Shown: piece after piece, positions 43,570 through 64,000 of the stretch | How the letters are laid out: every line of letters begins with the position of its first letter | How positions within the stretch are numbered: position 1 is the stretch's first letter | From: Saprospiraceae bacterium | GTDB taxonomy: Bacteria > Bacteroidota > Bacteroidia > Chitinophagales > Saprospiraceae | Length of the DNA stretch: 64,000 nt | Direction: 5' to 3' | NCBI GenBank assembly: GCA_021604865.1 | Contig: BQJU01000010.1 | Span: forward strand, 1-64,000 | Translations under genes and position numbers: made by a program | The notes under the pieces: generated by a model | The model's database searches: none | Seen by the model: only the letters and a program-made list of their open reading frames with translations | Told to the model about the DNA's origin: nothing

Positions 43570-44350
43570 ATGGGTATCTTTTGTGCATTTCTTTTTTCCT
43601 TTTCACCCACACACGGCCAGTATTCCATCAATAATGTCTTCGGCGACTTAACAGAATGTGATACCATGACCCGGGGTATTTATATCGTTTGGTGGGACAA
43701 AGACTTTAATTACGACGCGCAAGTAGATGTACTACTCGACACCATGATGAGGTATCGGGATATCTGCCTGAATAGTATGAGCATGATGGATCCTCCAAAT
43801 CCGGTAGATGGGTTTTATTACAATGTTTATATTCATAATCCAGGCAATGACAATGGCTTTTTCTCTCCGTACGATTGGGGGAATGGCCAGGGGACTGATG
43901 GTAATGGTTATCCTTTTTTAACCCTGCCTAGCGGAGCACTCTCGGATTGGGTAAATAATGCTCATGAAACCTTTCATATATTTCAATACAGCGCCAATGG
44001 TAGTGGTACAAAATAGCCTTACTGGTACTACTTTTCACGACTTAAACATGAACAATGATCGACAAGGATCTCTAAGTTTGACCGTAACACCCGATGATAC
44101 GACACTGTATTTTATTATTGCCTGCATGCCGGAGGTATTTGAAGATAGCAACCCGTCTTTTCAACTATTTCCTTACGAAATGAGGATTAGGCTAGGCAAC
44201 CCCACGGCTGTATTGGAGGTTGACTCCCAAGAGGAGAGGTCAGTAATAGGACGATACAATTTGCTGGGACAAAAAGTAAGCGAAAACAGCGGTGGCTTTC
44301 AACTCATCCTATACGATGATGGAACGACAACAATGATTTATTCAAGGTGA
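43570..44350 (+). pseudogene. Decayed exported metallopeptidase (DUF6055-like) gene
   Basis: The first open segment (43570-44016) encodes a signal peptide (FCAFLFSFSPTHGQ) and a domain ending in NNAHETFHIFQYSA, with the zinc motif HETFH, then stops. A second frame (from about 44010 to 44350) continues with SLSLTVTPDDTTLYFIIAC and a C-terminal YNLLGQKV...YDDGTTTM sorting-like tail. A normal protein would carry several hundred residues between these parts, so an internal deletion with a frame change is the best explanation. An ATG in another frame at 43559 also reads like a signal peptide, suggesting a second lesion at the start. The two parts fit one ancestral secreted gluzincin. Confidence 0.65.
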
Positions 44351-44450: not shown

Positions 44451-44468
44451 CTACTAAAAAATTAGTAG
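44451..44468. promoter_or_regulatory. BlaI-type operator 1
   Basis: CTACTAAAAAATTAGTAG has half-sites CTACTAA and TTAGTAG separated by four A residues. It is the most symmetric of three such sites in 60 bases upstream of the TonB receptor gene. BlaI/MecI regulators bind dyads of this kind, and a BlaI-family gene is two genes downstream. Confidence 0.7.
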
Positions 44469-44472
44469 ATAG

Positions 44473-44490
44473 TCACTAAAAAATTAGTAA
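44473..44490. promoter_or_regulatory. BlaI-type operator 2
   Basis: TCACTAAAAAATTAGTAA has the same half-site arrangement as operator 1 with one changed base on each outer side. It is 22 bases from operator 1 and covers the expected -33 region of the receptor promoter. Confidence 0.65.
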
Positions 44491-44492
44491 TT

Positions 44493-44515
44493 CTACTAAA
44501 AACATAGTAGGTTTG
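44493..44515. promoter_or_regulatory. BlaI-type operator 3 overlapping the -7 box
   Basis: CTACTAAAAACATAGTAG (44493-44510) is the third dyad. Its right half overlaps TAGGTTTG (44508-44515), an exact TAnnTTTG box 45 bases before the receptor ATG, so a bound repressor would block RNA polymerase directly. The centre-to-centre spacings are 22 and 20 bases, near two helical turns. Confidence 0.7.
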
Positions 44516-44559
44516 TTTTGTCAATAAATGTAATCACCCGACTTTAAATAAATCATATC

Positions 44560-47028
44560 ATGCAAATTTTCCAAAGACAAGTTGGCCTGCACCAGGCTGT
44601 TTTTCTTTTCGTTTTATGCTGTAATGTCTACGGGCTGCAAGCACAATCTACGAATGTGATCACAGGAATAGTGGTCGACGAAGACCACAAAGGATTAGAC
44701 CTGGCATTGGTAGCACTACTAAATACAACAGATTCTACCTTTGTGAAATCAGAATTTACGGACCAGGACGGGAGTTATTTGCTCAATCATATTCCCGCCG
44801 GAAATTACATCCTGCAAGTCAATCTATTGGGGTATGAACAGTACAGGGAGGCCCTCACGGTTGACAGCGTTATCCCGCGGATTGACCTCCCTGCAATTGT
44901 ACTTACCGAATCGATCAATGTATTGGATGAAGTCACCGTCACCGGGAAGACGCCTTATATAGAACGGAAAATCGACCGGACAGTCATCAACGTAGATGCC
45001 CTTAGCACCAATGCCGGTAGCGATGCTTTGGAGGTGTTAGAGAGAGCACCTGGCATCACGGTGGATAACAATGGCGCACTGATTCTAAAAGGCCGCGGTG
45101 GTGTGGCCGTCTTTATTAATGACAAGCCTTCTTACCTTGCAGGTTCGGAATTGGAAAGCTACCTACGTTCTCTTCCGGCCGGATCGGTAAAACAAATAGA
45201 AATCATGACCAATCCACCCGCTAAATACGAGGCGTCTGGCAACTCTGGCGTGATTAATATTATTTTAAAGAAAAATAAATTGCAAGGGTTTAATGGAAAT
45301 GTTTCTTTGAGTTTCCGCCAAGGGAAATACCGGGGGAGCAACAATAGTTTAAATTTAAATTACAATAAAAATGAGATAGGGATTTACGCCAATTGTTATG
45401 GCGGATTCTGGAATTCCTATCAAGATTTATACATCAATCGCTATTACAGAAATGAGGCGAATGAGCGGATTTCTTCATTCTCTCAGAATTCTTTCAATCT
45501 TAGAAATGGTAAATATCTGGTCTCTAAAATTGGGATGGATTATTACTTAAGTGATCAGACCACGTTAGGCCTTTCGTATAAATATAACACCAGTCCATCT
45601 GTTCGAAGTGTAGATAATACTGCTCGTGTTGCTGATGCTATGGATGTATTGACTCAACGCGTAGTAGCCGATAATACAACGGACGGCTCTTTTCATAATA
45701 ATGTGTACAACCTTTATTTAAATCATAAAATCGACACTTTGGGTAGTTCTATTTCGTTAGATGCGGATTATGTGACCTACAAATCCGGTTCTGATCAGCT
45801 CTTTAAGAACTTTCTTTACGATAACGAGGAAAACCTTACTTTTCAGGATCAGATCAATGGTGGACTGCCTTCAACCATTGATATCTATGCAGCAAAGACG
45901 GATTATATTAAGCCCTTTAGTGATGGATCAAAATTTGAAGCCGGCTTGAAGGTCGCCTTTACCAAGACGGATAATGAAGCGATTTATTCTACAACCATCG
46001 GTGGGGTTACAGAGCCTGATTATGATTTAAGCAATAGATTCCTCTATGATGAGTGGATCAATGCCGGTTATGTGAATTATGCCCGATCCTTTGGGCCGAT
46101 AGATATTCAAGTGGGCCTAAGGGTGGAATCTACTAAGCTTACTGGCGACCAGTTGGGCAATATTGAAAAACCAGACACCTCATTTACCAGAGAATATACT
46201 TCGGTATTTCCTACCTTTTATGCCTCCTGGAAGATGGATTCGATTTCCAATAATGTCTTGACCTTTTCCTACGGCAAACGAATAGATCGGCCCTATTTCC
46301 AGGATTTGAACCCATTTGTCAGCCCACTGGACCGATTTACTTTTTACGTTGGAAATCCAGGGTTGCTGCCTACATATTCACATAATTTTTCATTGGCTCA
46401 TACCTATAAAGGACGTTTGACCACTACGTTGAATTATTCAAAAACACTTGACGGCATCAACGAAACCTTGGAAATCAGAGAGGGTATTTATTACAGCCGC
46501 CCCGGCAATATTGCGACCAATCAGACCTATAGTATCTCCGTAGAGGGAAGTATTCCGATTACCAAATGGTACAACCTCAATGGTTATGTGGAGGTTTCCC
46601 ATTTAAAATTTGAAAGCCCGTTATACACAGAACAACTCAATTCTAGTGGGACCTATTATTACCTATCCGCTACCAATAGTTTTCAATTGGGTAAAGGCTG
46701 GAGTGGTGACCTTGTTGGCTTATACCGAAGTGATTTAGTGTATGCTCAATTATTGCTGAAAGCTTATGGACAGGTCAATCTTGGCCTGCAAAAGAAAATC
46801 CTGGATGGTGCAGGAACGGTGAAACTATCCGTCAGTGATATCCTGTTTACCAGAACCGGTAATGGGGTCATCAATAACCTCAGACTGACTGATGCGGATT
46901 GGAATAGTACTTTTGATAGCAGACAGGTGACCCTGGCCTTCTCCTGGAGGTTTGGGAAATCAACTTTGAAAAAACAAAAGTACAATAGTAATGGATCAAG
47001 CGAGGAACAAAACCGAGTAAGAGGATAA
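44560..47028 (+). CDS. TonB-dependent receptor-like barrel under BlaI-type control
   Basis: The 822-residue outer-membrane protein has a signal peptide ending near GLQAQ (residue 29), a carboxypeptidase-regulatory-like domain (about 33-115), a plug (about 120-240, with RAPGITVDNNGALILKGRGGVAVFINDKP) and a barrel ending with VTLAFSWRFGKS and a charged tail. It belongs to the OMP beta-barrel group related to TonB receptors that lack a long TonB box. Three BlaI-type operators cover its promoter. The BlaI- and BlaR1-like genes follow after 16 bases, so the receptor is the first gene of an autoregulated operon. The ligand is unknown. Confidence 0.88.
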   Translation: MQIFQRQVGLHQAVFLFVLCCNVYGLQAQSTNVITGIVVDEDHKGLDLALVALLNTTDSTFVKSEFTDQDGSYLLNHIPAGNYILQVNLLGYEQYREALTVDSVIPRIDLPAIVLTESINVLDEVTVTGKTPYIERKIDRTVINVDALSTNAGSDALEVLERAPGITVDNNGALILKGRGGVAVFINDKPSYLAGSELESYLRSLPAGSVKQIEIMTNPPAKYEASGNSGVINIILKKNKLQGFNGNVSLSFRQGKYRGSNNSLNLNYNKNEIGIYANCYGGFWNSYQDLYINRYYRNEANERISSFSQNSFNLRNGKYLVSKIGMDYYLSDQTTLGLSYKYNTSPSVRSVDNTARVADAMDVLTQRVVADNTTDGSFHNNVYNLYLNHKIDTLGSSISLDADYVTYKSGSDQLFKNFLYDNEENLTFQDQINGGLPSTIDIYAAKTDYIKPFSDGSKFEAGLKVAFTKTDNEAIYSTTIGGVTEPDYDLSNRFLYDEWINAGYVNYARSFGPIDIQVGLRVESTKLTGDQLGNIEKPDTSFTREYTSVFPTFYASWKMDSISNNVLTFSYGKRIDRPYFQDLNPFVSPLDRFTFYVGNPGLLPTYSHNFSLAHTYKGRLTTTLNYSKTLDGINETLEIREGIYYSRPGNIATNQTYSISVEGSIPITKWYNLNGYVEVSHLKFESPLYTEQLNSSGTYYYLSATNSFQLGKGWSGDLVGLYRSDLVYAQLLLKAYGQVNLGLQKKILDGAGTVKLSVSDILFTRTGNGVINNLRLTDADWNSTFDSRQVTLAFSWRFGKSTLKKQKYNSNGSSEEQNRVRG

Positions 47029-47044
47029 TTAAAACTTATTAGTC

Positions 47045-47407
47045 ATGCAACAACTAACAACAAGAGAAGAGCAAATCATGCAAATTGTATGGAAAAAACA
47101 GATGGCTTTTATTCGGGATATTATTGAGGACTTACCCGAACCCAAGCCGCATTATAATACCATTGCCACAATTGTTAAGATCTTGGTGAAAAAAGGATTT
47201 TTAAAATCGGAATTGATTGGTAATGTTCATCAATATAGTCCAGCTGTAGCATTTGAGGATTACCGGGAGGATGATTTGGAGGATATCAAGAAGAAGTACT
47301 TTGGCAATTCCTTAAAAAAGATGTTTGCCCACTTCGCCAAAAAAGAAGATTTCACAGAAGAAGAAAAAGAGGAACTGATCAGAATTATCAAATCTCAAAA
47401 GTCATAG
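47045..47407 (+). CDS. BlaI/MecI-family transcriptional repressor
   Basis: This 120-residue DNA-binding protein has the winged-helix pattern LTTREEQIMQIVWKKQMAFIRDIIEDL at the N-terminus, the recognition helix in PHYNTIATIVKILVKKGFL (about 37-56) and a C-terminal dimerisation helix (LKKMFAHFAKKEDFTEEEKEELIRII). BlaI proteins repress their own operons and are removed by cleavage by a BlaR1-type protease, here the next gene. The three dyads at 44451-44510 are the obvious targets. The stop is two bases from the next start, so the pair is co-translated. Confidence 0.93.
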   Translation: MQQLTTREEQIMQIVWKKQMAFIRDIIEDLPEPKPHYNTIATIVKILVKKGFLKSELIGNVHQYSPAVAFEDYREDDLEDIKKKYFGNSLKKMFAHFAKKEDFTEEEKEELIRIIKSQKS

Positions 47408-47409
47408 CT

Positions 47410-49380
47410 ATGTTACTTTTCCTATTGAAAGCCTCAATTGTAATCATAGTTTTATTAGCATTCTATAAGCTATTCCTGGAAAAAGAGAGCTTTTTTGCAA
47501 CGAATAGAATCTATCTGTTGAGTTGTCTTTTTTTGGCCTTGGCGCTGCCGTTTTTGGTCTTGCCAAAGTTGATCAATGAACAAGGAGTGGTCGATCGATA
47601 TATGGCCCAGCATCTGACACTTAAAGAAAGCAGTACCGTTGAAGTTTCGTCAACTTTGGAGCCATCCGCAACAAATAATTTCGAGCTTGATCTGGCCACC
47701 AATCGCCAACAAGCGGAGTATGGCACCCTAAACTTGAAAAACAAAAATTGGCTCCACTGGTTGATGATCCTCTATTTGTTTGGTGTAGCCATTTTAGGGT
47801 TCAATCTCCTGGCACAAATGACCAATCTCCTGCTAAAAATATGGAGGAATCCCGATAAAATTGTGGATACTACCGGCACGATTGTCAATATGACGGATCA
47901 GACTGAGCCTTGCTCTTTTTTCAACTATATCTTCATTAATCCCGAAAAGTATGACTATGAAACCTACAACCACATTCTTGCCCATGAGCAAATTCACGTA
48001 CAGCAAAGACATACGCTAGACCTGCTATTGTCAGAGCTGGCAGTGGTTTTTCTTTGGTTCAATCCATTTGTCTGGAAATTGCGCAAGGAAGTGGAAAAAA
48101 ATATTGAATACCAAACGGACCATTTGTTGTTGCAGCAAGAAGGTATTGAAGCAGAGCACTACCAAATGAATTTGCTCAAAGTGGCGACCCTAAATAAACC
48201 CCTGACCATTACTACGAATTACAATCAATCTCTACTGAAAAATAGAATTTTGAAAATGACTTCCCAAAAGTCAAATCCGTACAATATTTGGAAATATGCT
48301 TTTGTGGCCCCACTGGTCTTTATGACCTTGTTGCTGATCAATCAGCCGGAGGCAACGGCTACTGCTGCTATTTCTGGTACGCTACCTTCGGATAACATAG
48401 CAGACCCCCCTTCCAACCAGGGTGAAGCTATGAATAATGAGTTATTAGCAGACCTGGAGGCACCCGATGATCCTAGGCCTGCCACACCACCTGAAGAGGA
48501 GCAGCACATGACTTCCACTTCTACTTCCACCACCACGACCTTGACTGAAGACAATATTGACCTCAGAGATACTGCTAAATTGGACGTATTAAAAGACCTG
48601 GCGGCACTCGGCGACGAGGAGGCTCAGGAGATGTTATCAGAATTGAGTGATATTAAATTTTACATCAAATTTGAGAATCTCCCTGATTTGCCAGATAAAA
48701 ATTTCAGGGTTTCTTTTGATGGATTAGACCTGGAAGAAAGACTAGAGGTAATGAAGTGTCTAAATACTTATTACTCGCTGGATCCGGAGAAGCAAGAAGA
48801 GGTCTATCATGTATTCCTAAAATATGATTTAGACAAGCCCGATGTATTGAAAGTATTACAAGGCCGGCTCAGCAGAAAAGATATGAATGGAAAAAGCCAA
48901 TATCCACTCAGAGGTTTCCGCAAACATACGGCTAAAGAATTCAATGAGAATCAAAACAAAACGGGTAGTTTTAAAGGAAATCTTGATCACATGGAGGAGG
49001 TGAAAAGGTGTAAAGCTCTGCTTAAAGCAGCTAATGAAGGAAATATGGGGGAGGCCAGAGCATTGCTTAGCAATACCGACCCCAATTGGGCTTGTGATGA
49101 TAGTAAGTTTGCGATTATAGAGGCCGCCCGTGAGGGCCATCTAGACATGGTAAGGTTGCTACTGGATAATGGAGCAGATGCCAATCTTTATTTAGGAGAA
49201 CTGTATACACCACTCATGGCCGCAGCTAGCGAAGGCCACCTCGAAATCGTAAAATTGTTGATAGAAAGAGGTGCCAGAGCAAAGCTTTCATTACCTAACG
49301 GGACGACAGCTCTGGATGTGGCTACCCAAGGAAAACATAGCGATGTGACAGAGTTTTTGCGTAGACAAATGAGTGAATAA
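47410..49380 (+). CDS. BlaR1-like M56 metallopeptidase with C-terminal ankyrin repeats
   Basis: This 656-residue inner-membrane protease has two N-terminal membrane helices (about 3-22 and 30-50), a third near 115-135, then the zinc motif HEQIH (192-196) with helix LLLSELAVVFLWFNPFVWKLRKEVE after it, and a fourth span near 295-313. This is the BlaR1/MecR1 M56 core that cleaves the BlaI repressor. The sensor is not a penicillin-binding domain: residues 315-410 are low-complexity (Thr/Ser/Pro-rich), 410-520 a helical domain, and about 530-655 are three to four ankyrin repeats (e.g. FAIIEAAREGHLDMVRLLLDNGADAN). By BlaR1 topology the repeats would be periplasmic and may sense a protein partner. 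Confidence 0.9.
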   Translation: MLLFLLKASIVIIVLLAFYKLFLEKESFFATNRIYLLSCLFLALALPFLVLPKLINEQGVVDRYMAQHLTLKESSTVEVSSTLEPSATNNFELDLATNRQQAEYGTLNLKNKNWLHWLMILYLFGVAILGFNLLAQMTNLLLKIWRNPDKIVDTTGTIVNMTDQTEPCSFFNYIFINPEKYDYETYNHILAHEQIHVQQRHTLDLLLSELAVVFLWFNPFVWKLRKEVEKNIEYQTDHLLLQQEGIEAEHYQMNLLKVATLNKPLTITTNYNQSLLKNRILKMTSQKSNPYNIWKYAFVAPLVFMTLLLINQPEATATAAISGTLPSDNIADPPSNQGEAMNNELLADLEAPDDPRPATPPEEEQHMTSTSTSTTTTLTEDNIDLRDTAKLDVLKDLAALGDEEAQEMLSELSDIKFYIKFENLPDLPDKNFRVSFDGLDLEERLEVMKCLNTYYSLDPEKQEEVYHVFLKYDLDKPDVLKVLQGRLSRKDMNGKSQYPLRGFRKHTAKEFNENQNKTGSFKGNLDHMEEVKRCKALLKAANEGNMGEARALLSNTDPNWACDDSKFAIIEAAREGHLDMVRLLLDNGADANLYLGELYTPLMAAASEGHLEIVKLLIERGARAKLSLPNGTTALDVATQGKHSDVTEFLRRQMSE

Positions 49381-59717: not shown

Positions 59718-60566
59718 ATGAAAATTCACATCATTGATACTGGCTTTTTTAAGCTGGACGGCGGAGCCATGTTTGGCGTTGTCCCTAAACAATTATGGTC
59801 AAGGTTAAATTCACCAGACGAAAAAAATATGTGCACCTGGGCCATGCGTTGTATGTTAGTTGAAACTGAGGACCGAAAAATACTCGTTGATACAGGTCTC
59901 GGAGATAAACAGGATGCCAAATTTCGTTCACATTTTGAGCCACATGGAGAAGCAAATTTGTTGAAATCCTTAGCAGTGAAAGGTTTTTTGCCTGAGGATA
60001 TTACCGACGTGTTTTTGACACACCTGCATTTTGATCATGCCGGAGGCGCTGTCAGCTTTAACGAAGACCAGCAATTGGTGCCAACTTTTCCCAATGCGAC
60101 TTACTGGACAAATGAACGCCATTACAATTGGGCCTTTACTCCAAACCCTAGAGAAAAAGCCTCTTTTTTAAAAGAAAATTTTGTGCCACTTAGAGAGGCA
60201 GGAGTGCTCCAAAATATTCCAGTTAGTGAGGCCGATTATCAGTGGTTGCCAGGTATCCGAATACGGTTTGTGTATGGGCATACCGAAGCAATGATGATGC
60301 TTTTACTAGATTTGGGCCAACAAACCTTGGTCTATTGTGCAGATTTGATCCCCTCCTCCTATCACATCGGCCTGCCCTATGTGATGAGTTATGATGTCCA
60401 ACCCTTGCTTACCTTACAAGAAAAGGCCAGGCTGCTAAAAGAAGCCATAGAAAACGATTATTTACTCTTCTTTGAGCATGATCCCAAATTGGCTTGTGCC
60501 AGGGTGACCCGCAATGAAAAGGGTCGTATTATACTCGGCGAGCCGGTAGAAGTGGAAAAATTATAA
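59718..60566 (+). CDS. Metallo-beta-lactamase-fold hydrolase
   Basis: This 282-residue enzyme has the MBL zinc motif THLHFDHAGG (about residues 95-104), ILVDTGLG upstream, GHTEAMMMLLL (second-site His near 195) and CADLIPSSYH near 215. There is no signal peptide, so it is cytoplasmic. The long middle section with WTNERHYNWAF resembles the lactonase/phosphodiesterase-like MBL group; the exact substrate cannot be given. It shares a transcript with ribH but no riboflavin role is known for it. Confidence 0.87.
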   Translation: MKIHIIDTGFFKLDGGAMFGVVPKQLWSRLNSPDEKNMCTWAMRCMLVETEDRKILVDTGLGDKQDAKFRSHFEPHGEANLLKSLAVKGFLPEDITDVFLTHLHFDHAGGAVSFNEDQQLVPTFPNATYWTNERHYNWAFTPNPREKASFLKENFVPLREAGVLQNIPVSEADYQWLPGIRIRFVYGHTEAMMMLLLDLGQQTLVYCADLIPSSYHIGLPYVMSYDVQPLLTLQEKARLLKEAIENDYLLFFEHDPKLACARVTRNEKGRIILGEPVEVEKL

Positions 60567-60700: not shown

Positions 60701-63700
60701 TCAAATAGCTGACGGAGGTCCGACCTCCACCCATTGCCCGGCTGTTTGTGCGTTAATGGAATGATCATACATCGCTTCACAGGATACTGCCGGCAAATAG
60801 AAACGACCTTGATAAGCTGCATTCAATTGCACATAATACACCTGTTTTTGATTGGCAAAGATGTCAAAGAAAGTATTGACCCGGTCATCACGGAAGTCAC
60901 GATAGTCCGGTGTATTTTTTTCTTTGAAATAATCTACATTGTCCATACGGGTATTGGCCACTTCCCAGCCTGAAGGGAATATCTGTTGCAGTGCCATTTC
61001 CTTATAAGGTATGGCCCTAATGCCTGGATGAGTGACGGTTACTGCGGCAATAAAATCAGTACCCTGAGGCAGATTTGCCGGATTTAGGGGTTTACCCTCC
61101 AGACTTTGATAGGTAACTGCCATTTTGAGGTTATTTTCTTGTGGCTTCTCTTGTCCCGCCACTGGTTGGCCGCGTAGAATCAATCGGGCAAACAATACCG
61201 AATTATTAGGGTTCTTCACCTTAAATTGCCGGATTCCATCTGTGTCTACTGCTAAGGCGATTTGCATGACAGGATAGGGCGAACCGGCATTAAAGGTCTG
61301 GCCACTGCCCACCTGGTACGCAAATTGCAATTTTTTCGCCGATCCACTTTCGCCAACAAATTTCCCAATAGCAAGCAGAGCATAAGATAACGTTTGTGTG
61401 CTGTGCCACTGCGTATTGCTCAATTGCTCAGAAATGTATTTGACAAGGGTAGCGGCCTCATTCTGTTTTCCTAGTATGATCAATGTCTCTAAAATCATGG
61501 CCCGGTCCCGGAGGTCAGAACCGTAGGTATCCGCCAATTCCTGATAGGCCTCCACTTCCGTACTAAGTTGGTTGATAATCTGCTCGGCAATTTCTTTTTT
61601 CCCGGCAACGGCATAAGCGGCAGCCAATCTCCATTTGCTAGATAATTGCAGATTTTTTCTTTCCCTCAATCGGTTCATCGCCCCCATTTCGGGTTTACCC
61701 GCCAATGCTAGCGTATATAAGCGATAAGCCTGATCCAATTCATAACCACGGCGGGAATAAAAGCCGTAATCCAATTGTTCGCCGGACCACATCTTGGCCA
61801 CTTTCTTTTGGAATTGGATCCACTTTTCCAGCATACCGGGAGGTAACGTATAGCCCAAAGCTTTAGCTTCCAGTAAGAAATGACCGGCATAAGTGGTGGA
61901 CCAATGGTTGATATCCGTATTGCCAGGCCAGTAAGCAAAACCACCAAGGGACGTCTGGAATAACTTCAACCGATTGATCGTTGCTTCAATATTTTTGGGA
62001 ACATTTTCTTTTTGATTTTCATCCAATTCGAGCAGGCGACCAACATAAAGCTGTGGGAACCCACTTGACAACGTTTGCTCCAGGCAGCCATACGGATAGT
62101 TGAGCAGATAGTTTAATCGTTGTCCCAAATTGATGGGCGGAATATTAGAAACCTCTAGAATGCCCTCATTAGTACCTTCCATGCCAAAAGTGGTAAAACT
62201 AGTCGCCCATTCTTCATTTTGTTGAAGCACTTTCTCTTCTACCCTGGTAACCACTGGGTTGGGGTTTCTAATCTGAATTTCGATTTCCTGACTGGCTTTT
62301 TCACCGCTGCCTTCCGCATGAACCACAAAACGGGCAATACCCGCCTTTTCACCAACAGTAAATCTGAAATTGGCGAGTTTATCTCCTGGTTGGGAAAAAT
62401 TGAGCGTTTGAGTGGCATTTCCTTCAAAATGGACCAATCCGCTCTTTTCTTCCACCCGAATGTTTGCCTGTCGCACCTTTTTGTCCATGGCAAACACGTT
62501 GACCGGTAGACTCAAGGTTTCACCTGGACCCAGCACCCGGGGTAGGGTAGCCAAGACCATGAGTGGTTTCTTAACCGGCACGGATTTGTCCCAGGCACCA
62601 TAAGCACCCGTATTATTGTTTGCAACAACCATAGCCCGCACGGCACCCACATAATTGGGTAAGGTAATTTCGTGTTTGGCTTTACCGCCTTTTTTGAGAT
62701 AAAATGGACCAAGGTGCCTGACTACCGGTTTGAATCGGTTGGCTTGGTCTTCCTTCTTAGGGCCAATTAACTCTCCGTCGCCGCCGATACTCAATACGCG
62801 CTCCAATTCAGCACCATAAGCTCCCAACACCTGATCATACATGTCCCAGGTGCGTACACCCAATGCTTCCCGTGCATAGAAGGTATTCCAGGGATTAGGT
62901 GTTTTAAAACGGGTTAACCCAAGCAGCCCCTCATCCACTACGGAAATGGTGTAGGCCATCGGCCTGCCTTCTTTTTCACTTACTTCTAGGGTAAAGGTAG
63001 CTTCGGGAGCCAATTCTTCTGGCATTTTTGCAATTGGTGCCAGGTGAGTGGCGGGATCTTCTACCTCTATTGGGATAACGCCATACATGCGAATGGGTAA
63101 GTCATTCTCTACCTGGGCATGAGGTTGAAGAAAAGACACATGGGCATAAACGGTGGGTTTCATATCAGCCGTTGTGGTAAATTTTACTTTATTTTCACCT
63201 TTTACGGCTTCTGACCAAAAGGATTGGATGACTTTGGTACCGTTTTCAAGAGTGATCAGTGCCCGTCCTTTTTCAGCCGTTGGGATATTTAACTCAACGG
63301 TTTCACCTACGGAATATTTGGTCTTATCAGATGAGAAATTGAGGACAGCCGCAGCTTCCCGGCCTTCGCCATCATCTTCATACCAGGGATAACCTGCATA
63401 GAAATAATCACCAGAACAATGTCCGCTTTGCGCATCACATACCCGAATCAGATAACGACCCCATTCCGTAATTTTTAAGTTCCAACTGGCTTCACCACGG
63501 TTATTTGTGGTGACATTGGTCGTTTCAGTAGCATCGTAATGATTGCTTGAGTTGTATCGGCTAGCTTGATCATAACCCTGATCCCACCACCAGCGCCATT
63601 CCACTTTGTAAAGGCCTATTTTTAGGTTGCGGTTTGCTTGCCCCTGTCCTTTTTCGTCAACAGCGACAAAGGCTATCTTTTCTTCTTTTTCGAGATCCAG

Positions 63701-64000
63701 CCGTTTTTCTCCATAAGGACTTTGAGGGAGGTGCACCCCAGCATATATGGAAAATGGAGAATAGGGCATGGTCACATTATCTGTGCTGAAATCGCCTCCC
63801 TTTTCAAAAACCCGGGTTTTAAAGCTGGCCTGTAGTTTGCCTGGCAAGAGTTTGCTGCTGGTTAAGCTGGCCTTGACATTGGCTACACCCTGTTCATTGA
63901 GTGGGCCATCAAAAATGGTTTTCGGTTCGGAGTCAGCTCTTCTTGCGGGATCATCAAACTCGAAATCTTTGTATTTCTCAAAGGCGGTATTTACGGCCTG
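60701..64000 (-). CDS. Alpha-2-macroglobulin family protein, cut by the window end
   Basis: The frame is open through the right edge of the window, so the N-terminus lies outside; at least 1,099 residues are present. Macroglobulin-like beta domains (e.g. KYSVGETVELNIPTAEKGRALITLE) precede the bait/A2M segment WDMYDQVLGAYGAELERVLSIGGDGE. The thioester motif CLEQ is intact (bases 62086-62075, in YPYGCLEQTLS), followed by an alpha/alpha-toroid thioester domain and a final domain ending GQWVEVGPPSAI. Bacterial members trap attacking proteases in the periplasm. The usual partner gene pbpC is not downstream. Confidence 0.92.
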   Translation of the reverse strand, partial: QAVNTAFEKYKDFEFDDPARRADSEPKTIFDGPLNEQGVANVKASLTSSKLLPGKLQASFKTRVFEKGGDFSTDNVTMPYSPFSIYAGVHLPQSPYGEKRLDLEKEEKIAFVAVDEKGQGQANRNLKIGLYKVEWRWWWDQGYDQASRYNSSNHYDATETTNVTTNNRGEASWNLKITEWGRYLIRVCDAQSGHCSGDYFYAGYPWYEDDGEGREAAAVLNFSSDKTKYSVGETVELNIPTAEKGRALITLENGTKVIQSFWSEAVKGENKVKFTTTADMKPTVYAHVSFLQPHAQVENDLPIRMYGVIPIEVEDPATHLAPIAKMPEELAPEATFTLEVSEKEGRPMAYTISVVDEGLLGLTRFKTPNPWNTFYAREALGVRTWDMYDQVLGAYGAELERVLSIGGDGELIGPKKEDQANRFKPVVRHLGPFYLKKGGKAKHEITLPNYVGAVRAMVVANNNTGAYGAWDKSVPVKKPLMVLATLPRVLGPGETLSLPVNVFAMDKKVRQANIRVEEKSGLVHFEGNATQTLNFSQPGDKLANFRFTVGEKAGIARFVVHAEGSGEKASQEIEIQIRNPNPVVTRVEEKVLQQNEEWATSFTTFGMEGTNEGILEVSNIPPINLGQRLNYLLNYPYGCLEQTLSSGFPQLYVGRLLELDENQKENVPKNIEATINRLKLFQTSLGGFAYWPGNTDINHWSTTYAGHFLLEAKALGYTLPPGMLEKWIQFQKKVAKMWSGEQLDYGFYSRRGYELDQAYRLYTLALAGKPEMGAMNRLRERKNLQLSSKWRLAAAYAVAGKKEIAEQIINQLSTEVEAYQELADTYGSDLRDRAMILETLIILGKQNEAATLVKYISEQLSNTQWHSTQTLSYALLAIGKFVGESGSAKKLQFAYQVGSGQTFNAGSPYPVMQIALAVDTDGIRQFKVKNPNNSVLFARLILRGQPVAGQEKPQENNLKMAVTYQSLEGKPLNPANLPQGTDFIAAVTVTHPGIRAIPYKEMALQQIFPSGWEVANTRMDNVDYFKEKNTPDYRDFRDDRVNTFFDIFANQKQVYYVQLNAAYQGRFYLPAVSCEAMYDHSINAQTAGQWVEVGPPSAI

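Follow-up and report, generated by a model that had tools for sequence, protein, structure and literature searches.

The analysed DNA, referred to as the window, comprises bases 1–64000 of contig 10 of a highly complete 7.97-Mb genome. Three consecutive genes on its forward strand encode an outer-membrane protein of the TonB-dependent-receptor type (44560–47028, 822 aa, recognized by its Pfam domains), a BlaI repressor of the Penicillinase_R family (47045–47407, 120 aa, assigned by Pfam and by alignment with MecI) and an M56 membrane metalloprotease with an ankyrin C-terminus (47410–49380, 656 aa, assigned by Pfam and structure models). Both this gene order and the intact HEQIH motif of the protease agree with the first-pass annotation. 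The intergenic gaps measure just 16 nt between the receptor gene and blaI and 2 nt between blaI and the M56 gene, thus leaving little room for a separate promoter before blaI, and the gene following the M56 gene is convergent. The closest named relatives of the system belong to the Saprospiraceae and Flavobacteriaceae. The earlier statement that no beta-lactamase or PBP gene is near was confirmed for those ORFs of the 64-kb window that were scanned with Pfam, among which there was no serine beta-lactamase or penicillin-binding-protein domain and a single lactamase-like match, a generic metallo-beta-lactamase-fold protein (59718–60566) located 10 kb away. Elsewhere in the window, two overlapping ORFs (43570–44350) look like the parts of a single secreted protein interrupted by a frameshift, with an HETFHIF motif, a sorting-tail-like end and no Pfam match, and an alpha-2-macroglobulin-like protein is encoded at the window end (60701–63847).

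Pattern search and genome comparison identified three dyads on the forward strand of the receptor promoter, each a predicted BlaI operator: dyad 1 (CTACTAAAAAATTAGTAG, 44451–44468), dyad 2 (TCACTAAAAAATTAGTAA, 44473–44490, 22 nt from dyad 1) and dyad 3 (CTACTAAAAACATAGTAG, 44493–44510, 20 nt from dyad 2), at exactly the positions first proposed. A −7 promoter box of the Bacteroidota type TAnnTTTG (TAGGTTTG, 44508–44515, forward strand) overlaps dyad 3, as had also been claimed. The core ACTA-N6-TAGT occurs three times in the window, always in this promoter; in 100 shuffles of the window it had a mean of 0.41 copies and three copies were never reached. The stricter pattern ACTAAAAANNTAGT has six copies in the whole genome, three in the receptor promoter, two directly upstream of blaI in two further BlaI-M56 operons and one inside a coding region. 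Tandem dyads were confined in this genome to the receptor promoter and the blaI operon of contig 77, and the reversed control pattern of the tandem dyad had zero occurrences in it. A chance origin of the dyads was ruled out by the shuffles and the whole-genome counts. Two motif-less blaI genes of the same genome are distant paralogues (22–24% identity).

Dyads were located within 400 bp upstream of 49 of 52 related blaI genes. These upstream regions, 19.9 kb for all 52 genes, contained 121 dyads, and the 485 kb around them contained 3. In a wider set including named genomes, dyads were present at 68 of 71 blaI loci and their spacing was exactly 20 nt in 69 of 88 cases, the blaI-locus counts being slightly inflated by a few loci that represent the same genome taken twice. 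Of 68 related operons, 40 had a TAnnTTTG box 13–16 nt past the point at which the last dyad starts, against a background of 0.6%. Among the 35 tandem dyad sites of 16 genomes, 32 were at a blaI-M56 operon (two of them assigned by M56 position only); no regulon beyond the blaI operons was seen in these genomes, with just three tandem sites off blaI (L279, L282 and L289). The operator core reported for BlaI, MecI and CopY is TACA/TGTA (PMC7253601), and the different core found here counts against the switch proposed below. As the dyads stand at ∼95% of the related blaI operons and are nearly absent elsewhere, this comparison indicates that they are very probably BlaI operators, in line with their original reading.

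Penicillinase_R (PF03965) spans the whole length of BlaI (residues 4–116, E 4e-30). Alignment with MecI (E 8e-11), for which the MecI PDB sequence served as reference, placed H96-F97 opposite N101-F102. N101-F102 is the cleavage site in Staphylococcus aureus BlaI, and the Phe at P1′ is reported as almost invariant (PMC9834060). This Phe was kept in nearly all BlaI proteins compared, preceded mostly by His or Tyr; the aligned P1 residue in the present protein is His and not Asn, which counts against the proposed switch. With the CopY model the repressor scored 51 bits (cut-off 122 bits), and it has no Cys at all and therefore no CxC metal motif.

The protease matched PF05569 with 43 bits, above the cut-off of 31. 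Its HEQIH zinc and catalytic motif (residues 192–196, 47983–47997, forward strand) was evident from the sequence and the alignment, and the latter also identified E233 as the third zinc ligand (48106–48108, forward strand). Residues H192, E193, H196, E233 and D237 were invariant across 40 sequences, and the HExxH motif, with a Glu 41 residues past its first His and an Asp four residues further, has the arrangement of a gluzincin site; the BlaR1 counterparts are H201, E242 and D246 (PMC9834060). A predicted model of residues 1–325 reached a pLDDT of 85 and a pTM of 0.80. When the M56-domain model was compared with solved structures, five BlaR1 cryo-EM structures ranked top (Z 13.7–16.6), led by 8exs (Z 16.6, rmsd 4.9 over 220 residues), and the next fold followed at Z 6.1; the M56 membrane-protease part is thus modelled with the BlaR1 fold. 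The full-length AlphaFold model had a mean pLDDT of 61.5 and was poor outside the protease core and the ankyrin part; the low confidence of residues 313–520 counts against the proposed switch. A plasmid search returned distant M56 matches only.

Past the M56 domain, ankyrin families were the sole Pfam matches (Ank_2, E 8e-20). Pfam and the structure model delimited four repeats (residues 530–656, 48997–49377, forward strand), the upper end of the three to four first suggested, with pLDDT values mostly of 85–95; residues 531–656 of the model fit a four-repeat designed ankyrin, at Z 22–23 against ankyrin and DARPin structures. A penicillin-binding (class-D-lactamase-like) sensor domain was absent from the Pfam scan of the M56 protein, which also remained far below the cut-off of the BlaR1 NCBIfam models. 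The view that ankyrin repeats stand in place of the penicillin-binding sensor is thereby borne out.

M56-ankyrin proteins beside BlaI recurred in Saprospiraceae, Flavobacteriaceae and Roseivirga. By Pfam, a further 13 genomes of the family, and Kordia as well, have M56 proteins with ankyrin arrays. BLAST with the ankyrin part added loci in Winogradskyella, Ulvibacter, Maribacter, Pelagihabitans and Roseivirga, all of which have a close BlaI (60–72%) and dyads; culturable carriers of the pair include Maribacter halichondriae, Winogradskyella flava and Ulvibacter antarcticus. Given this recurrence across three groups, the M56-ankyrin/BlaI pair is, by sequence comparison, a conserved Bacteroidota subfamily and no one-off fusion. 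The initial description of a BlaI/BlaR1-type circuit rewired to a TonB receptor held as to the circuit and its receptor; the system is no singular event, the pair being spread over the Bacteroidota. A literature search yielded no relevant paper on BlaR1 or BlaI with ankyrin or on M56 with TonB in Bacteroidetes, and no report of M56-ankyrin proteins, which is weak evidence as subscription journals were mostly outside its scope.

Other M56 proteins carried different tails. AhpC/TSA (thioredoxin-like) tails were found in genomes G054 and G150, with hits that reached the Pfam cut-off or fell just short of it. The M56 proteins with such tails (L059:1255–3627 and L169:2293–4581) were placed within the ankyrin clade by a quick tree, so that the periplasmic module has apparently been exchanged. 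DUF2807 forms the tail of other sister M56 proteins, and on contig 9 of the genome studied here BlaI adjoins an M56 protein (L020:6104–8113) that has TonB_C in two stretches besides a weak T9SS-type sorting tail, with a dyad upstream. The M56 tail hence looks like an exchangeable extracytoplasmic module. To our knowledge, TonB_C is functional only in the periplasm, and its presence at the end of a sister M56 protein in the same genome supports a periplasmic tail. The last hydrophobic membrane segment of the protein studied here comprises residues 292–310 (48283–48339, forward strand), after which the chain is predicted to be periplasmic. BlaR1 has an N-out/C-out topology and its zinc site is on the cytoplasmic side (PMC9834060), and as the model has the BlaR1 fold, residue 313 onward would be periplasmic too. 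Homology to BlaR1 and the TonB_C and thioredoxin-like tails of the sister proteins by analogy thus support the extracytoplasmic ankyrin region that was first envisaged.

The receptor combines an N-terminal CarboxypepD_reg-like domain, a weak Plug match (E 3e-4, just below its cut-off) and an OMP_b-brl_3 barrel (PF14905, E 1e-102), and with plug and beta-barrel it is of the TonB-dependent type. An STN domain was absent from its Pfam scan, and a sequence search found no relative of solved structure. Among 398 family genomes, ∼20 receptor orthologues (46–66%) were detected, and dyads and BlaI were absent beside all those read in other genomes except that of G071, a member of a second genus. An orthologous receptor and an M56-ankyrin protein occurred together only in the genome studied here and in G071, adjacent in both cases. 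In G071 the dyads are followed first by blaI, then by M56-ankyrin and last by the receptor, opposite to the order in the window; its receptor is 62% identical, and its three dyads are spaced by 22 and 20 nt as they are here. In the genome search proposed at the outset, for M56-ankyrin proteins next to BlaI and TonB receptors, the pairing with BlaI was recurrent and the link to an orthologous receptor rarer, in 2 of 398 genomes. The two linked receptors were not sisters in the receptor tree, which counts against the proposed switch and implies that the link arose twice or was often lost. A receptor in G163, from the same genus as G071, was not counted as linked: its contig begins 145 bp before the receptor and holds no M56 end. 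In another genome, the gene downstream of an orthologous receptor (L107:3584–7395) encodes an ECF sigma factor, a different regulator beside this type of receptor, and one more ORF comes after it.

Taken at its own promoter, the receptor lies inside an operon headed by conserved BlaI-type dyads, and its predicted control by BlaI, as initially claimed, is well supported by this arrangement. Nearly all other M56-ankyrin operons lack a receptor, which also counts against the proposed switch, as does the absence of dyads and BlaI beside orthologous receptors elsewhere. As most M56-ankyrin operons and most orthologous receptors stand unlinked, the receptor looks like an output that was recruited in two lineages.

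We consider it probable that BlaI and the M56 protease form a proteolytic switch that regulates its own operon, within a Bacteroidota subfamily that has an ankyrin array as extracytoplasmic module. BlaI dimers, spaced by about two turns of the helix, would bind side by side on the three ACTA-N6-TAGT dyads, the last of them over the −7 box, and would keep the receptor-blaI-m56 operon off. Ankyrin arrays bind proteins, so the periplasmic partner that triggers the switch is probably a protein or peptide; it would alter the ankyrin domain itself or the way this domain is joined to the last membrane helix. The zinc protease thus activated, facing the cytoplasm, would cut BlaI near H96-F97, and all three proteins of the operon would be made until BlaI builds up again. 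In its own lineage, the receptor would be the first gene under the switch. Operator conservation, operon structure, the residues and fold of the protease, the ankyrin fold and the recurrence of the pair come from sequence comparison; BlaI binding and cleavage, the membrane side of the repeats, the kind of signal and the induction of the receptor are predictions.

Instead, the BlaI-M56 cassette might be an ordinary one that regulates itself and answers to general stress on the cell wall or envelope; the receptor would then have come to lie behind the promoter and ahead of blaI by accident, as a passenger, and the ankyrin array would have no connection with it. We regard this as possible but somewhat unlikely. 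Most M56-ankyrin operons do consist of dyads, blaI and M56 alone, the neighbours of the pair are variable (amidohydrolase, PF00144 beta-lactamase, M20 peptidase), and PF14905-type receptors are numerous, with 38 first-look candidates in this genome; however, an orthologous receptor adjoins the same pair in the second genus in reversed order, no other genome of the 398 holds both partners, and a PF14905-like receptor lies within 3 kb of 8 of 70 M56 loci, on the same strand in all eight. It is quite improbable that the receptor, besides being the output of the circuit, also serves as its input, the ankyrin array reading the occupancy, the misfolding or a periplasmic domain of the receptor. The exclusive adjacency in two genera, the general nature of ankyrin arrays as protein-binding modules and the N-terminal CarboxypepD_reg-like periplasmic domain of the receptor would fit such a role, but M56-ankyrin proteins with ∼50% identical membrane parts occur without an adjacent receptor, and no STN signalling domain was detected in this one. 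With most M56-ankyrin operons devoid of a receptor, the receptor as signal would not be general, and the original suggestion that its occupancy or misfolding is the signal was not upheld, most orthologous receptors also lacking dyads and BlaI. A cytoplasmic ankyrin array docking BlaI or another cytoplasmic protein is very improbable: ankyrin domains are best known from inside cells and the topology rests on prediction, but the predicted membrane part superposes on C-out BlaR1 (Z 16.6; PMC9834060), the hydrophobic segments fit four helices and one re-entrant helix, and sister proteins have TonB_C or thioredoxin-like domains where this one has its repeats.

The proteolytic switch that we favour resembles BlaI/BlaR1 and MecI/MecR1 of Staphylococcus and Bacillus in pairing a Penicillinase_R repressor with an M56 membrane zinc protease, in fold and catalytic residues, in the Phe at the aligned cleavage position and in having multiple promoter operators. 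BlaR1 is the textbook example of a membrane protease cleaving the repressor that partners it, and it is known almost only for penicillin sensing. In contrast, the present system has ankyrin repeats in place of the penicillin-binding sensor, ACTA-N6-TAGT instead of TACA/TGTA operators, His instead of Asn before the aligned cleavage site, and an outer-membrane receptor as output instead of beta-lactamase or PBP2a. It belongs to the Penicillinase_R and M56 families and, with the sensor domain missing and operator and output different, is by architecture no BlaR1-class beta-lactam sensor. Bacteroidota M56 proteins with TonB_C, DUF2807 or AhpC/TSA tails share its membrane-protease part, BlaI partner and ACTA-N6-TAGT dyads but differ in the extracytoplasmic module. 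Cell-surface signalling through TonB receptor, anti-sigma and ECF sigma factors likewise places a TonB-type receptor under a proteolysis-based envelope-to-gene circuit, whereas the operon described here contains no ECF sigma or anti-sigma gene, its receptor has no detected STN domain and the predicted control is by repressor cleavage. The CopY/CopR copper repressors are homologous (CopY model, 51 bits), but the present BlaI is far below the cut-off of 122 bits, is paired with a protease and lacks CxC.

These comparisons suggest a Bacteroidota envelope-sensor family built on the BlaI/M56 switch, that is, a BlaR1-type machine with other periplasmic tails and its own operator; as this operator is distinct and sharply conserved, members and targets should be easy to find and test. 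The state of a periplasmic protein could possibly set the level of an outer-membrane receptor by this route without sigma factors. The broadest extension, which we put forward tentatively and hold to be unlikely as a whole, is a large family of one-step envelope-to-gene switches, each pairing a BlaI repressor and its ACTA-N6-TAGT operators with an M56 protease of exchangeable periplasmic tail (ankyrin, thioredoxin-like, DUF2807 or TonB_C); its ankyrin class would read periplasmic proteins, in the present lineage the controlled receptor itself.

The genes next to BlaI-M56-ankyrin in other genomes were varied. A similar-looking gene lies downstream in two Flavobacteriaceae assemblies (L184:8147–9586 and L186:4261–5673), and the former, the sole one of the pair scanned, encodes a beta-lactamase-family (PF00144) serine hydrolase. 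In marine Flavobacteriaceae, a lipoprotein-like amidohydrolase with TPR repeats follows (L182:9300–11363 and L189:9329–11392), and genes of similar length follow in L192 and L199. In a different blaI operon, that of L277:2421–4266 in Maribacter halichondriae, a tandem dyad precedes a gene for a 425-aa lipoprotein-like protein without a Pfam match, blaI and M56, so that this gene sits between operator and blaI, the same kind of insertion as that of the receptor.
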